Part shown: one piece after another, positions 6,411 to 45,538 of the stretch
Numbering within the stretch: the stretch's first letter is position 1
Layout of the letters: every line of letters starts with the position of its first letter
IMG/VR virus record: IMGVR_UViG_3300035670_000145
Span: 1-64,000 of that record
Strand: one strand, 5' to 3'
DNA from: a virus
Length of the DNA: 64,000 nt
Notes under the pieces: model-generated
What the model was told of the DNA's origin: nothing
The model's input: the letters and a program-made list of their open reading frames with translations, nothing else
Databases searched by the model: none
Program-made: the position numbers and the translations under genes

Positions 6411-9400
6411 TTATTCAGGACGGCCGTCAATTGTAAAAAGACCACTCACTCTTTGTGCCAATCCTCTTGAAATTAAAGAATTTCCGGAGGCATCAGTGCC
6501 GTGTTCAACGCCTCGCACAGTCACTTCACCCTCTTCATCCATTGTTACTTCCGTCACCCTGAACACGCGACGGTTGCGTACTACCGTGCCCAAGACAAAC
6601 AGGTGGCCGGCGTAACCCGCCAGGGCCGTGGCCCTATTGGAAGTCACTGACACATTGTTAACCTGTTTCGTGCCTTGATTGGTGGGAAAATAGCACAATG
6701 CCGAATAGTTGCCGTTTGGAATCGATGGGGAAATAGCACTATTAAGAACGCCGCCGTCCTCCACTGTCCCAGAGTAAATCCTGTCCCATTGATTCTGAGC
6801 TAATTCCACATAAATATAAGCACCAGGAAATACAGGGCTATCTGTGGGAAACGTCTTGAATTCAATTGCTTTTTGTGAATGACGCTTTACTTGACAAAGA
6901 AACTTTGCAACCATAATCGCCTGCTCTCTGCGAGTGACAAAAGCCGACATATCAACTGTTTCTTTTAACGTGTTATCTTCCGCTGCTCCAGTTGTATCAG
7001 ACAACTGCACCTGCACTGTAGTGTTGCGGGCAAATGTGCTTTCAGCGTCAATTGTGCGATAGACAGCATCAATAATCACGTCTTGCGTGTTAGAGCCATA
7101 GTCAATAAACTCTTCCTTGTAGCTGTCGGCAAGAATATTTCCCTGGTTAAACAGTGCAGTGATGGAAATGGCAGTGGTGATCTGGCCGGTCTGATTGTTG
7201 TAAGGCACTGCCGGCACTAAAACATCCTGTCCTCCGACTTTGGCAAGTTCAAGCAAGCTAAAACCAGCATTTAACATCCAAAAAGCCCGCCATGATGATG
7301 GCTCTGCAATTACGCCATCCATGAACAGTTGATTGGTCTCGCAAAATTTCTTGCTTCTTGCTAGCTGCTCGAGATTGGTAGACTCAAGCGTCGCGTACTT
7401 GCCAATGCCATCATTAAAATCCAAAATTGTGTCAACAAAAATGTCAGGGGCCGTGTTTGGATTGCCGTTTGGAGATGGCGAAAGATAATCCTTGTCAGCG
7501 GCGTACTGCCCCCATGCCCTTCCATTGACCGTGCCAGACGTGCGAAGCAGGCGCCCCTTCCTTCCTTTCGTGACAAACAACGTAAAAGAGCGCAGGTCTT
7601 GCACACTTTTGCCCGAATACATATTGAGCCCAAACAACGCAATATCAGAATAAAGACCGCGAAAATTTGAAAACGGCGTGACAATTTGTTCAGTGACTGC
7701 AGCCAAGGCAAACTCTGGACCATTGTCAAAGGAAAACGACACTTGCTCGTCTGATGTATTGGTGAACAAGTCCCATTCGTTCATGCCGCCGGGAGAGCTG
7801 TTCAATGGAGGGAAGAGACCATTGCTGCTGCGAGTGCTGCCAGAGTATTCAAAGCTGGCCCCCGCGTATGCGCTGGTCATTGAATAGGCAATAGGACTGC
7901 CGCTATTCTCGAGGTAGTGATAAAGCCTGAGGCCGGTGCCGGCCTGGACTAGCTCGGGATGGGCAGAAAACTCAGCCACTGGATCAATTACTGGCTCAAA
8001 CTTAAACTGCCAGTGCGCCAAGGGCAAAGCGCCACCGTTAAAGCGAAAATAAACAAAATTCTCAATATCGGCTGATCTGCGTACAACAAAAATACCAGGC
8101 AAGTAAGAATAAGTTGCATCAGTGGTTCGCTTGACTTTCACTAAAAACATAGAGGAGCGCATTTTTATGCCGTTGTCTGCAGTGGACCACCCTCGCATTC
8201 TGTCCGATCCATATGTTTCCTGCCTGCCGCTTATGCGCTTGAACACACGCGCTTTAATTGAAAAGTCAACAATATTGCAAGGCGAAATTGTTTCATAAGC
8301 GGCTTCTTCTACTCGGCAAACACTTTTAATGTAAAACAAATCGTCTTGGAGGCTTTGCTGCGCAAGAATGTCTTCTAGCTCTGCATAGCGATTAAGGGTT
8401 GCAATTTCATCTGCCGTAAGATTGCGGACAAACGCATAAGAATAAGACATGCTGCCGCTAGAGCCACGACCGGTATAACTAGATGCTTTTGATTTAATTG
8501 TGTAAATATTACCTTGAGCAGCAAGTTGCCTGGCGTTTAATTTAGTGCCGCTCCCGATTGTTGCACCGAAGAATCCTGAAGTCAAGCCTTGAGTTAAAAC
8601 GCGAGTGTCTCGACGGTCTTGTTCTAGTAATGATAAGGCAATGGTTCTGGAAGTATTGTACTCGGCTTCAAGCCCTAGCAAATTCAAAATATTGCCTGCA
8701 GCAATCTCGTCCTTGTCCTGCACTGAATAAGCAAGAACACTGCCCCTGCCATTCTCGACGGCTCGAAGTGATACGATCATTGGACCATCAACGACATTCG
8801 CCCTATTTGCTCCAAGCACTTTGAGCTTTGCGGAGCCAAACTTAAACAGGCCTGAATTGTCAAAGACAGTAGACAAAGTTTGCCGAGCATCGTTTGCTTC
8901 TTCGTCGGCTAAATTATTATCTTCGCTGGTCCGAAGCTGCTCTAGCGTAATCGTGAACGATTGATCTTTACTTACTCGCTGCAATCCATTGGACCAGTTG
9001 GTCATCGTAATGCGATTGTCTGCCGTAACAAATGAACCGGCTTCGTTGCGAATGTTGTAATCAATATTGATTGGCACCACTCCATACACGCCAAAAGTGT
9101 TTGACGCCGTGGGAGAATAAGCGTGACTAAACCCATCACTCTTACCCCCATTGATTGCAGTGCGGACACGGTAGGGATTGGCAATGGCGGTGCCATCGGC
9201 AGTTGGATCTACGCTTCTGGTTTGTCCGTCCAGCGCCGGCCTTAAAAAGCTGTTTCTTAATGCCCCCGTGTAACTTGGCGAAAAATAAGTCCAGTAGTTT
9301 TGTGCAATTAAGTCTCTTAGCGCTGTCTGACCAAACGCGCTTCTGCTTTCATCAATGGCATCAACGCCTCCGGCTCCAATGACAAACAAAAGTTGAACGA

Positions 9401-40714: not shown

Positions 40715-41353
40715 TCAAACAGAAAGAGACCTCACGCTTTTACGAGGAGCCCTTGGCTTGATGAGCATAGCGTAGTGGGCCTCTCCCTGTTCTGTCAGCT
40801 CATAAAGCCCCTGCTCTGGCCGCCTAACTATGCCTTCCGCTAAGAGCTTGCCAAGCGTGTTATAGATGGTTTGAAGGGGAATGGCTGCTCCTGGCAAGGC
40901 ATGAAGCGTAGATGGGGCGCAGGGTTCCTGGGACTGCCCTAGAAGTTCGATAATCACTTCCTTTGCCGTGGGCATTGCCTTTTCATCACCACTTGGCCTC
41001 CATAGCAATCTTCCCCTGCAGCGGCCGATAATGGCACGAGCTTGTCTTGTGGAGCAAGGCAGTTCCCTGATGAAGGCCTGCAAAGCAGCATTGTTTTCGT
41101 GCCAACAGGGAGACACTGGCGATTTTGATGGCGCAAGGTCCTCTATATGAGTGGTAAGTCGTTTTTCGTCTTCTAGCGAGGCTTGCACCACTTTTAGGAC
41201 GATGAGACGACTCGGACAGCAATGGAGGAAATTGTGAAGGGTTTCGTTGACGGCGGCGATATTGGTGCGCCATGAGCAGTGGACAAAGGCTGGAATACCT
41301 TCCCACTGCACGAAAAAGAACTGACCGTCGCTGTGCTCCCAGTCCAGGGACAT
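40715..41353 (-). CDS. Winged-helix protein of unknown function (212 aa)
   Basis: ATG 41353 (MSLDWEHSDGQFFFVQWEGI). The N-terminal half is unassigned; residues about 135-200 ('IPLQTIYNTLGKLLAEGIVR', then 'PEQGLYELTEQG') look like a winged helix of the PadR/Fur-like kind. It lies next to the large repeat-rich non-coding region, so it could bind there. Confidence 0.65.
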   Translation of the reverse strand: MSLDWEHSDGQFFFVQWEGIPAFVHCSWRTNIAAVNETLHNFLHCCPSRLIVLKVVQASLEDEKRLTTHIEDLAPSKSPVSPCWHENNAALQAFIRELPCSTRQARAIIGRCRGRLLWRPSGDEKAMPTAKEVIIELLGQSQEPCAPSTLHALPGAAIPLQTIYNTLGKLLAEGIVRRPEQGLYELTEQGEAHYAMLIKPRAPRKSVRSLSV

Positions 41354-41561
41354 GGCTTCTAAGGGGCTTACCAAAGCACCATATCACTTACCAGCTCATT
41401 GTCAACTCAGGAATTCCCTCCTCTTTGCTCGCACTTACCACCATAGGCAAATTACAATAGCTGTATGGCGCAGCGTATGTCCTCTGACAGGCAACGCAGC
41501 CACGAAAGGACCGTCACGAGCAGCTCAGCTCCCTTCGCCTGAGCCGCTTCGAGCGGGAGCA

Positions 41562-41632
41562 GCCGCCTTGGCGGCGTGTCACGAAGGCCGCAACGCGCCT
41601 TAGCCCCCAAGGCGAACGAACCTAGCGGCCTT
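41562..41632. repeat. GC-rich hairpin cluster, copy 1
   Basis: GCCGCC-TT-GGCGGC (41562-41575) is followed by an outer stem AAGGCCGC (41584-41591)/GCGGCCTT (41625-41632) that encloses an inner stem CGCCTT/AAGGCG (41596-41614). The inner loop and 3' flank recur at 41711-41759. Confidence 0.65.
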
Positions 41633-41710
41633 CTGCCCCCAGCGACCTTGTCATAGCGGCTCTTCTCAACAACCCTCCTCTCGACTGCTTCTTTTAAGAA
41701 ACCTTTGCCA

Positions 41711-41759
41711 GGAGCCCGTTACGAGCAATAGCCCCCAAGGCGTACGATCCTAGGGCTCC
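41711..41759. repeat. GC-rich hairpin, copy 2
   Basis: Stem GGAGCCC (41711-41717)/GGGCTCC (41753-41759). The enclosed sequence shares TAGCCCCCAAGGCG and a related ACGA-CCTAG-G flank with the copy at 41601-41629, although the outer stems differ. Confidence 0.6.
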
Positions 41760-41834
41760 CTCCTAACCACCTTCTTTTCAACTATTTCTTTTCTGACAGT
41801 AGTGTGATCGCCCATGGTGTGCGCAGCTACCGCC

Positions 41835-41883
41835 AGTCTCATTGTTTTCTCATTTGAGACTAATTTGAGACAATATTGAGACT
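41835..41883. repeat. Iteron-like repeats (TTGAGAC x3, 11-bp period) with inverted copy
   Basis: TGAGAC at 41855, 41866 and 41877, exactly 11 bp apart (one helical turn), preceded by an inverted copy AGTCTCA at 41835-41841 that pairs with 41855-41861. Typical of repeated protein-binding sites. Confidence 0.65.
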
Positions 41884-41941
41884 AAAGAAGGGGCACGAAC
41901 AACGCCGCTTGGGGCGGCTCCTGAACATAGGCCCCTTCTTT
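41884..41941. repeat. 11-bp perfect inverted repeat with internal hairpin
   Basis: AAAGAAGGGGC (41884-41894) and GCCCCTTCTTT (41931-41941), enclosing GCCGC-TTGGG-GCGGC. Directly after the TTGAGAC repeats. It could act as a bidirectional terminator or structural element. Confidence 0.65.
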
Positions 41942-41977
41942 GCACAATTCAACATTCGGGCACTATCTTGCGCTCGG

Positions 41978-42039
41978 GAACGATCTTAGTGCGCTCACTC
42001 CTTCTCGTAAGCTTTAGATCGTTCGCGCAGTGCGCACTA
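41978..42039. repeat. Two interleaved inverted repeats (pseudoknot-like)
   Basis: GAACGATCT (41978-41986) pairs with AGATCGTTC (42016-42024), and TAGTGCGC (41987-41994) pairs with GCGCACTA (42032-42039). The order A-B-A'-B' means both cannot form as simple hairpins, but an H-type pseudoknot or alternative cruciforms can. Confidence 0.65.
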
Positions 42040-42112
42040 GCCTTTCGCCCATAAAAAATAAACGAAAAAAAACGCGGAAAAAGGAAAAAAGTCGTTTAAA
42101 AATTGCGTCGCT

Positions 42113-42304
42113 TTAAAAAGGGGTGCCCCCGCCCCAATCCACTCCCATAGCAGGCGCTACTGCTCCCTGTCTGTATCCGTTGCTACCGTTTGGCGGATTG
42201 TCACGTAAAGTTACGTTCAAATCTGGCCGCAAATTTAGGGATTGTCTCTCTAAACCACGCAACAATAGGCGCCCACTATGAAGCAGACGCCCTGTTGATT
42301 TCAA
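42113..42304 (-). CDS. Doubtful small gene (63 aa)
   Basis: Open from TTG 42304, one base after the upstream stop, to 42113. The product (MKSTGRLLHSGRLLLRGLER...) is basic, low in protein-like features and without a Shine-Dalgarno. Possibly real by position only. Confidence 0.25.
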   Translation of the reverse strand: MKSTGRLLHSGRLLLRGLERQSLNLRPDLNVTLRDNPPNGSNGYRQGAVAPAMGVDWGGGTPF

Positions 42305-42305
42305 C

Positions 42306-42470
42306 CTATTGTTCTTCAGCGCCTATGATTTCACTAGAGACAATAGCTTCATGGTCGAAACTATAGTCTGCATCCGCTACCACCTCGTGAGGATTTGCGG
42401 CCCCTGATATAACCAACTTAACTGTAACGTAGACTGTAGCCTGCGCAGTGTGATTGTAACGTTGCATCAT
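42306..42470 (-). CDS. Small acidic protein (54 aa)
   Basis: ATGATG at 42470 overlaps the upstream stop (ATGA). The 54-aa product has alternating beta pattern ('ATVYVTVKLVISGAANPHEV', then 'DADYSFDHEAIVSSEIIG') as in small phage proteins of unknown role. Last clear gene of the three-gene module 42306-43572. Confidence 0.6.
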   Translation of the reverse strand: MMQRYNHTAQATVYVTVKLVISGAANPHEVVADADYSFDHEAIVSSEIIGAEEQ

Positions 42471-43066: not shown

Positions 43067-43115
43067 GGCCGTTTGTTTGTGATTGTTTGTTTGTGATTGT
43101 TTGTTTGTGATTGTC
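43067..43115 (-). repeat. Tandem 14-bp repeat in leader of the 199-aa gene
   Basis: On the minus strand a 14-bp unit (AATCACAAACAAAC) is repeated about three times right up to the ATG at 43066. It replaces the usual Shine-Dalgarno region and is A/C only on the mRNA strand, hence unstructured. Confidence 0.7.
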
Positions 43116-43572
43116 AGAACGCTTTGATTAGTTTCTGCGGCTGAAATTCGCCATGATATAAACATGCTGCAGCTTGTAAAATTATTTCAGAATGCAGCAG
43201 CCACCAGATATCTCTAGGCGCTGATTTGCGCGCCATTTTATAGCTGAATATTTCACCGCTCAGAGTAGAGTCAAATCCGCCGCTTATGTGGTGCCAATCA
43301 TGCACAGCGCGAAATTTAGCATTGTCAGCAAAGCTAAGAAATGGGTGATTGTTGTGCAGCACGCTGATAGCTAGGACGTTTGATTGCCGATATATCCGCT
43401 GCGCAACAGATAGATCTACCTCCTGATACCAGAAATCAACGTGGCATGGCAGACGATCGAATTCGGCGCAAATCCACGTGCGCAGCGCTGCGCGCTCGGC
43501 TTCGGTGGGATCGGTAGGCGCTGCAGCGTAGAGAGCTGCTAGGCGCGCTGCTAGGCGTGATTGATGGACCAT
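43114..43572 (-). CDS. His-rich conserved phage protein (152 aa)
   Basis: ATG 43572 (MVHQSRLAARLAALYAAAPT) preferred over an upstream TTG. 'LSFADNAKFRAVHDWHHISG' followed by 'GGFDSTLSGEIFSY' is a His/Asp/Glu pattern I associate with a phage family next to the glycosylase-like gene; a metal site is plausible. Function unknown. Confidence 0.6.
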   Translation of the reverse strand: MVHQSRLAARLAALYAAAPTDPTEAERAALRTWICAEFDRLPCHVDFWYQEVDLSVAQRIYRQSNVLAISVLHNNHPFLSFADNAKFRAVHDWHHISGGFDSTLSGEIFSYKMARKSAPRDIWWLLHSEIILQAAACLYHGEFQPQKLIKAF

Positions 43573-43688
43573 TTGCGGATTGCTAGTGAAAATCGCTGCA
43601 TCGCTGCAGCAAACAAACAATAGGCGCAAGCGGCCAGAATGCTAGGTCACATAGGGAACACTGATCGCGGCAGACTGGTCATGCGTCA

Positions 43689-43708: not shown

Positions 43709-43902
43709 AGTGGAGGTTTCGGGATCCAACCATGAGTCACGCTGATCAGTCAACCGCCGCGGACGCCGCCCCTACCATGAGACTAGAGAGACTGAGCCGG
43801 ATTGTTGCAAACGGTCACATTTGCGCTGCTGATATCAGGAGTGCTAATGTTAAGAAATATTTTGTAACATTAGCAATATTGATATAAGCAACACTCATGC
43901 AA

Positions 43903-44109
43903 CGAAATGTGAAGAAATGTTAATTATTAAGAATTGTTAAGAAATGTTAATTATGAAGAAACGTTAAGAAATGTGAAATATTGCGAAATGTTAAGAAATG
44001 TTAAGAAATGTTACAAAATGTGAAGAAATGTAAATGTTAAGAAATGTCAAGAAATGTTACAAAATATAAATGTTAAGAAATGTTGCAAAATGTGAAGAAT
44101 TGTTACAAT
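43903..44109. repeat. A/T-rich iteron array of GAAATGTTAA units
   Basis: Eleven exact GAAATGT heptamers in about 200 bp, plus variants (GAATTGT, GAAACGT, CAAAATGT). Most are spaced 10 or 11 bp, one helical turn, as in GAAATGTTAA repeated head to tail. All lie in the same direction. No spacers of constant unique sequence, so not CRISPR. Confidence 0.8.
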
Positions 44110-44127
44110 AGTACAAATGTACTATTG
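44106..44127. repeat. 9-bp inverted repeat at end of iteron array
   Basis: CAATAGTAC-AAAT-GTACTATTG, perfect 9-bp arms, immediately after the last repeat unit. Confidence 0.65.
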
Positions 44128-44189
44128 ATGCGTCTATGTGCATAGGCTCATAAAAACAATTGAGAATGATTCGCAATAGCAATACGCTT

Positions 44190-44264
44190 CCAGCCGGATC
44201 CAATACGACGCCAGCCGGATCTTGATACAACCTTAGCCGTGTCCGATAGAGCTCTGGCCGGATC
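44190..44264. repeat. Four 21-22-bp direct repeats (CCAGCCGGATC)
   Basis: Units begin at 44190, 44211, 44233 and 44254: CCAGCCGGATC, CCAGCCGGATC, TTAGCCGTGTC, CTGGCCGGATC. Spacing is 21-22 bp (two helical turns). Lies 25-100 bp from the stop of the leftward gene at 44290. Confidence 0.7.
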
Positions 44265-44289
44265 TTGTCAATTCTTTTGCTTTGTGCTG

Positions 44290-44820
44290 TCAACACTTCA
44301 CAATGATCCTGCCATCATTTTCGTCCCATCGAAAGATTGCCCATTGTTGATACAGCCTCCCCAGCTCAATAGCCTGCTCTTCTGATATGCCGTAGATGGC
44401 CCAACTAGGCTCTTGCCAGCTCCCATCGACAGACTGCCCCACCACTTCTTCACAGGATGCCCCTGAGAGCCCATCAATGCGCCTGCGCAAGCTTTCATGC
44501 AAAGGCTCGTCAAAAAGACGATGAAGCGGGGTGTTTTGGCTGAAAGGACAACAAGCAGAAACAATAAAACAAGGCAATGAAGATGGCGCCCAGGCATAGC
44601 CTTCTGTCGAAACAAGCACTGCTTCGTCGAAGAGTTCCAGAGGAGCAATCGTCTTTTCAATCCTGAATTCAGCTAAGGCATCTCGCAGGAAATCAACAAA
44701 ATGCTGTTTGTGAATGTTTTTGAAGATATTGTCCACATATTCTTTAGTGTCAGGATCGTAAAGCACCATGCCTCTCCACCAATCGTTAACAAAGTGCAAA
44801 AGCTGATCATCGTCAATCAT
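44290..44820 (-). CDS. DUF3293-like protein (176 aa)
   Basis: The C-terminus ('SWQEPSWAIYGISEEQAIEL', then 'GRLYQQWAIFRWDEND') matches DUF3293, which has this Trp-Glu, 'GIS..QA..LG..Q.A.F' pattern. 'NTPLHRLFDEPL' upstream also fits. Function unknown; common in phages and bacteria. Overlaps upstream gene by 4 bp. Confidence 0.7.
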   Translation of the reverse strand: MIDDDQLLHFVNDWWRGMVLYDPDTKEYVDNIFKNIHKQHFVDFLRDALAEFRIEKTIAPLELFDEAVLVSTEGYAWAPSSLPCFIVSACCPFSQNTPLHRLFDEPLHESLRRRIDGLSGASCEEVVGQSVDGSWQEPSWAIYGISEEQAIELGRLYQQWAIFRWDENDGRIIVKC

Positions 44821-45269
44821 GAGAATTCTCCAATAATGTAGTCAAAAGGGCCGTCACCACCATGGCCAATACAATGGCCAGGATACAAAGCATGCCTAGC
44901 AAGTCCGTAGGGGCCAATAATGGCATGATTATCTTTTAACCATTGCTTGTCACAAAGCTTTTCTGGCCGTCCTTTCCTGTCCCAAACAATGGAGAAGAAA
45001 AGGGCAGGATCAACAGGGTCGCCATACTCATTTTTAATTTCATAGCCTTCTTCTTCTGTTTTGTGGTGGATGTAGCTCCACATATCGCCCCAATTGTGTA
45101 AATCTTTTTCGGGATACACATGCAGGCCGAAGCACCATCCTGACGAACTTTTGCCAAGATGCAGGGGCTCTTCTGCTTCTTTGCCGCAATGCAAGCATTT
45201 AGGAGCATGTAAATAATAGTTGGCTCCCACGGTCAAGCCCTTTTGAATTTGGAAAGGTGCATGTTCCAC
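44817..45269 (-). CDS. Conserved protein with Cys pair and HLGKSSSGW motif (150 aa)
   Basis: 'APKCLHCGKEAEEPLHLGKS' followed by 'SSGWCFGLHVYPEKDLHNWG' is a pattern shared by small uncharacterised phage and bacterial proteins; one Cys pair may bind zinc. No function known. Start overlaps the 101-aa gene by 37 bp. Confidence 0.65.
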   Translation of the reverse strand: MEHAPFQIQKGLTVGANYYLHAPKCLHCGKEAEEPLHLGKSSSGWCFGLHVYPEKDLHNWGDMWSYIHHKTEEEGYEIKNEYGDPVDPALFFSIVWDRKGRPEKLCDKQWLKDNHAIIGPYGLARHALYPGHCIGHGGDGPFDYIIGEFS

Positions 45270-45538
45270 ATTCCCCTACTCATGTCGCCTGGTCGATAAA
45301 GCACGTAACAGGAAGGTTCTTGCACTAGCCCTCCTTCCCCATCGCTAACCGCTTCGGCCTCATCCACCCAGAAGCCTTTGCACTGTCCATCTTCGTCAAA
45401 CACGCCCATTTGATAATCACCATCTTCCATGCACAGTCTGATGTGGAAGATAAGCTCTTTGAGGGAACTGGCTTGATAAACACCCTGCGTAGGAGGAAAA
45501 TAGGGGCCGTTGTCAGAATAGTTGCGAACGGTGATCAT
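45233..45538 (-). CDS. Protein of unknown function (101 aa)
   Basis: 101 aa, ATG 45538 (MITVRNYSDNGPYFPPTQGV). Overlaps the upstream 51-aa gene by an ATGA. Acidic with several Trp; no family recognised. Confidence 0.6.
   Translation of the reverse strand: MITVRNYSDNGPYFPPTQGVYQASSLKELIFHIRLCMEDGDYQMGVFDEDGQCKGFWVDEAEAVSDGEGGLVQEPSCYVLYRPGDMSRGMWNMHLSKFKRA

Follow-up and report, generated by a model that had tools for sequence, protein, structure and literature searches.

The locus under study was a non-coding island within the window, i.e. the 64,000-nt stretch analyzed here (positions 1 to 64,000 of the 73.8-kb virus record IMGVR_UViG_3300035670_000145), located between two genes that both lie on the minus strand (44290-44820 and 43114-43629, with the start of the latter taken at an internal ATG). 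The island contained a dense array of GAAATGT-type units ending in a palindrome, flanked on one side by a Fur-like box and four 22-bp repeats, and on the other by an imperfect hairpin, a conserved block, a TTGAC...ATGGT block and a GATAAGCG palindrome of GATAAG type close to the downstream gene (Table 1). The terminase of the record was 62% identical to that of Synechococcus phage S-CBS4 and many of its early genes also matched this phage, from which the host is inferred to be probably a Synechococcus/Cyanobium-type cyanobacterium. Loci of other viral contigs compared with the window are designated below by L followed by a number.

Table 1. Position and supporting observations of the features composing the island and of its flanking genes (window coordinates)
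Position	Strand	Feature	Supporting observations
43114..43560	-	First gene downstream of the island	Start taken at the ATG at 43560; kept in relatives L009-L012
43689..43708	.	Palindrome GATAAGCGGATACGCTTATC	Same family of palindromes recurs in relatives
43722..43753	-	TTGAC...ATGGT block (role inferred)	Weakly like the TTGAC-N15-TGGTA element of relatives; strict pattern not matched in the window
43766..43793	-	Conserved block AGTCTCnnnnGTCTCATGGTA, promoter-like (inferred)	Present in the window and six related loci
43817..43900	.	82-nt imperfect inverted repeat (hairpin) between the array and the downstream conserved block	41-nt arms, 76% complementary; DNA fold z-score -4.3
43857..43871	-	Inverted array unit ATATTTTGTAACATT	Exact 15-nt reverse complement of 44053-44067
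43904..44106	+	Array of 17 units (GAAATGTTAA read on +; KTAACATTTC read on -)	10-bp steps in runs of 2, 2, 2, 5, 3 and 3, with 16-17-bp jumps; TRF scores 131-188; unit consensus from seven regions
44106..44127	.	Palindrome CAATAGTACAAATGTACTATTG containing the LexA box AGTACAAATGTACT (44110-44123)	10-bp arms (CAATAGTACA-AA-TGTACTATTG); only AGTAC-N4-GTACT in the 73.8-kb record
44161..44175	+	Fur-box-like 7-1-7 palindrome TGAGAATGATTCGCA	Degenerate; better copies in relatives
44181..44269 (about)	-	Module A: four imperfect ~22-bp repeats GRYCCGGCYnnnnnYGTATY	Just downstream of the stop of gene 44290-44820
44290..44820	-	Gene whose stop precedes the island	DUF3293 domain

The array reported in the first-pass annotation was confirmed. 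Eleven exact GAAATGT copies were located at 43904-44083 on the plus strand, while the rest of the window contained only six copies on the plus strand and three on the minus strand. Six more units with one or two mismatches filled the same lattice, giving 17 units starting at 43904, 914, 931, 941, 958, 968, 985, 995, 44005, 015, 025, 041, 051, 061, 077, 087 and 097. With 23% GC, the stretch was the most A/T-rich of the window. Several details differed from the initial description, which gave 10-11-bp repeats all facing the same way, so that a protein could bind along one face of the helix, and a 9-bp inverted repeat. The step was exactly 10 bp inside runs, but successive runs were about half a turn out of phase and therefore do not all face one side of the helix, one unit was inverted, the palindrome arms were 10 bp long, and the feature extended well beyond the array. 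Rfam hits to two miRNA families were below the gathering score and represented chance hairpin matches, and a sigma-70 promoter scan returned 3 sites against 2.0 in shuffled sequences.

A DNA-pattern scan of IMG/VR for three GAAATGT units in 10-bp steps returned 11 stretches, of which seven (L016, L017, L020, L021, L023, L024, L025) possessed the same modular island, and protein scans with the flanking genes provided additional loci. The 22-bp repeats identified the island in 43 dereplicated loci, including the window, in cyanosiphophages related to S-CBS4. The order of the modules was fixed, with the four 22-bp repeats followed by, often, a Fur-like box, then a palindrome, swappable arrays, and genes in the same direction. 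In each case, the island started at or just after an upstream gene and the genes that followed read mostly in the same direction, although the flanking genes themselves varied. L017 and L025 carried two complete islands within 2.2 kb (790-1000 and 3003-3260 in L017, same in L025), each upstream of genes and together flanking a small gene cassette, suggesting that cassettes may be exchanged by recombination between islands. Downstream of the arrays, L027, L038, L105, L153 and others possessed a conserved TTGAC-N15-TGGTATCCGCGC element that also reads as a very short ORF (MVSARVRV...) and may be a promoter or a leader peptide. No DNA similarity to known phages was detected for the island. The published S-CBS4 record (L033/L034, NC_016766) ends inside the homologue of gene 45233-45538 and starts just before the RNR gene, so that the whole island is missing from it, and the repeats may have broken the assembly; the isolated relative S-CRES3 was retrieved only for its DUF7178 relative. 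A scan of genome contigs with the A1 pattern returned a single MAG contig, of doubtful origin.

The content of the array slot differed between close relatives. Based on the neighbouring 101-aa protein, the closest relatives of the window (L153, L154 and L157/L248) lacked the GAAATGT array: L153 carried a long array of 8-bp NNNCATAT repeats (about 7590-7850), L157/L248 a Pho-box array, and L154 only the 22-23-bp repeats. Absence of any array in close relatives with the same gene order had been proposed beforehand as grounds for rejecting the initial reading, and the outcome was thus mixed. On the tree of this protein, the 10-bp array required four changes and the Pho array six, these counts being approximate as the alignment had few columns. 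Further array types were found in the islands of L083, L104, L202, L009, L010, L175 and L192 (GTAGAATATACnCnAC, TGAGCCCTACTG, GCGCCAGTTCTTTATAC, ATAAGCTGAGCTTAT palindromes), matching no regulator motif recognized here.

The modules were then compared with externally defined regulatory motifs, two of which fitted exactly. First, the palindrome adjoining the window's array matched the cyanobacterial LexA consensus (RGTACNNNDGTWCB / AGTACWNWTGTACT; PMC3091678). In an unbiased ranking of all 5-bp half-site palindromes with gaps of 0-10 across 44 related islands, AGTAC-N4-GTACT ranked first and was found in 20 regions once the 22-bp repeats were excluded. Of its 33 copies in 410 kb of loci, 30 lay inside the islands, which represented 9% of the bases, and the strict consensus was present in 19 of the 44 regions against 0 in shuffles. 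Second, in sister phages the slot held CTTAACCT boxes with 3-bp linkers in 11-bp steps, exactly the Pho box of SphR (PMC1906773), a regulator that binds at least three such boxes. A scan of 2.9 million viral contigs for three Pho boxes in tandem returned 14 stretches, of which 13 belonged to this family at this locus: twelve carried two or more homologues of window genes and one (L236) carried the 22-bp repeats and a LexA box, whereas the last (L240) was an unrelated simple repeat. The reversed pattern gave none. The Pho arrays contained 9-34 boxes, the largest being in L246, showed 5-bp phase shifts comparable to the half-turn jumps of the window, and often enclosed a LexA box, but no Pho-array region examined also had the 10-bp array. 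Conversely, the window region contained no paired Pho box and its step is 10 bp, so that its own array is not a Pho-box array.

The Fur-like copy of the window departs at one fixed position from the 7-1-7 Fur box (TGANAATNATTNTCA), which was matched in 11 related regions. NtcA, SufR, CRP, NdhR, CIRCE, DnaA-box and HIP1 patterns were not enriched. Several other repeat patterns tested were read off the islands themselves, making their enrichment circular, and only LexA, HLR1, Pho and Fur, which are external definitions, were retained as evidence.

Read on the minus strand, the window's unit is (G/T)TAACATT followed by two bases, which matches the HLR1 half-site of RpaB, (G/T)TTACA(T/A)(T/A) plus 2 bp (PMC11633204), at 7 of 8 positions, with the same 2-bp spacer, 10-bp period and G/T position. 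The mismatch lies at the third base, which is A instead of T in nearly all window units, so that the strict half-site definition is not satisfied; a half-site of the form TTAACAT is nevertheless listed in the scpB HLR1 (PMC6331805). Perfect HLR1 sites were restricted to the sister copy L017b (four overlapping sites) and one site of L020. This similarity is weak on its own, as 21% of random units of this composition match HLR1 as well, and a scan of viral contigs for HLR1 triples returned 44 mostly unrelated stretches, only 2 of which belonged to this family. Among the unrelated contigs, L270, L273, L274/L283 and L284 contained several consecutive perfect HLR1 half-sites (three or more overlapping triple matches each).

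The OmpR-type DNA-binding domain PF00486 was absent from this record and from 11 relatives, whereas the same search detected it in the Synechococcus elongatus control. No LexA-type domain passed the cut-off either, although weak LexA-type winged-helix matches (E about 0.03, below cut-off) were found in ~99-codon frames 1-2 kb from the LexA box of two relatives (L234, G006:28682-28858, and L235, G011:12791-12970). The binder is therefore probably a host protein.

Taken together, the array is best explained (probability of about 0.6) as an operator array for a host OmpR/PhoB-class response regulator, perhaps RpaB, lying with a host LexA box and a Fur-like box in a conserved control island between two co-directional gene blocks. 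The initial interpretation of a cooperative silencer/activator region or an origin of replication was thus partly supported, its regulatory alternative fitting the evidence well and its origin alternative poorly supported though not refuted. In this view, host regulator dimers would bind the 10-bp direct half-site pairs cooperatively along the array and, together with LexA at the palindrome, would raise or lower transcription of the downstream genes from the promoter-like blocks, located about 110 bp or more from the array end, according to host light/redox state and DNA damage, while in sister phages the slot would respond to phosphate through SphR/PhoB. The analysis itself established the repeats and their conservation, the exact consensus matches for LexA and, in the sisters, for Pho, the slot swapping, the fixed orientation, and the lack of a phage-encoded OmpR-type DNA-binding domain in the genomes searched; that any host regulator or LexA actually binds, that the ligand is RpaB, and in which direction transcription would change are inferences from sequence alone. 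The regulator class is better supported than the RpaB identity, because the alternative occupant of the slot is an exact OmpR/PhoB-class operator array with the same geometry, whereas RpaB is weakly supported and rests on analogy with the Pho-box sisters. Moreover, 17 half-sites are far more than one promoter needs, and a predicted Pho box in a cyanophage does not always bind PhoB (PMC10976474). If this reading is right, cyanophages of this group carry a modular control island that can be refitted with arrays for different host stress regulators, and the sequence alone would predict which environmental signal (light, phosphate, DNA damage, iron) each phage listens to, making the question of how environment tunes cyanophage infection directly testable with purified RpaB, PhoB and LexA.

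Host response-regulator boxes in phages have been described previously. CtrA-site clusters in intergenic regions of Alphaproteobacteria phages ('lytic deferment', PMC9437464) are likewise unusually dense sites for a host OmpR-class response regulator in a large non-coding region, were gained and lost among relatives and arose repeatedly, but they concern another host phylum and other regulators, whereas here head-to-tail arrays of 9-34 half-sites are swapped between regulators in one slot and combined with LexA and Fur-like boxes; the present reading would extend this idea to cyanobacteria and to several regulators at once. Cyanophage DNA carrying boxes for the host PhoB/SphR regulator is also known (PMC10976474, citing Zeng and Chisholm 2012), with a few boxes at individual gene promoters of Synechococcus phage S-PM2d and of Prochlorococcus phage P-SSM2 pstS, compared to arrays of 9-34 boxes in the sister siphophages and a related 10-bp array in the window. 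Phage GIL01 is controlled by host LexA at its lysogenic promoter P1 (PMC4551915), while here the LexA box is embedded in or beside response-regulator arrays. Compared to the HLR1/RpaB sites of cyanobacteria (PMC11633204, PMC6331805), which share 8-bp direct half-sites, the (G/T) first base and the ACAWW end, the window has 17 half-sites instead of two. Long head-to-tail arrays exchanged between regulators in one conserved slot and combined with LexA and Fur-like boxes were not described in the papers found.

Among the alternatives, a regulator sponge remains possible but unlikely. In this hypothesis, the arrays would titrate one or another host global regulator (RpaB-like, PhoB, LexA, Fur) as phage DNA multiplies, releasing host regulons and rewiring host stress responses without a phage regulator protein, rather than controlling one phage promoter. 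The excess of sites, the interchangeable array identity and the two modules of L017/L025 are consistent with it. However, the orientation relative to the downstream genes and the conserved promoter-like blocks are fixed, which a sponge does not need, LexA boxes number only 1-3 per genome, and a literature search for phage decoys gave no direct precedent.

A replication origin, in which the four 22-bp repeats would be initiator iterons and the A/T-rich array the unwinding region as in lambda-type origins, is less likely still, although not excluded. Direct repeats beside A/T-rich DNA are indeed present, relatives L023 and L083 also have A/T-rich DNA right after the repeats, and the raw cumulative GC-skew minimum was at 45.4 kb, near the locus but confounded by gene strand. 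The detrended minimum was at 32.1 kb, and gene-strand-corrected GC3 skew differed only slightly across the locus (-0.116 versus -0.172, an estimated 1.3 standard errors). A/T-richness was not conserved, as relatives with the same gene order had arrays near 50% GC and L009, L010 and L012 had no comparable A/T-rich stretch. Module duplication and slot swapping also weigh against an origin, which does not explain the exact Pho and LexA boxes.

Operators of an unrecognized phage-encoded repressor or partition protein (ribbon-helix-helix or winged helix) are doubtful. Direct-repeat arrays at one helical turn are typical of partition sites and RHH operators, and the phage has a weak winged-helix candidate at 40715-41374, but no DNA-binding or partition family was recognized in most of the nearby small genes, and the exact host boxes in the slot of sister phages need no phage protein. 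A selfish or slippage-driven tandem repeat without function, spreading in a recombination-prone gap, is very unlikely despite the fast turnover of the slot and the variable flanking genes, since expansions would not converge on externally defined LexA and Pho consensus sequences with the right spacing.

The surroundings of the island showed two further particularities. Compared with L009/L010 and L027-L032, the gene preceding the island (44290-44820) appeared mosaic, its first 52 residues matching one set of relatives at 90% or more and its C-terminal part (DUF3293) another set at about 50%. In addition, an 863-bp stretch without any ORF of 70 aa or more (41604-42466), with a short 11-bp repeat at 41852-41885, formed a second non-coding region near the island.
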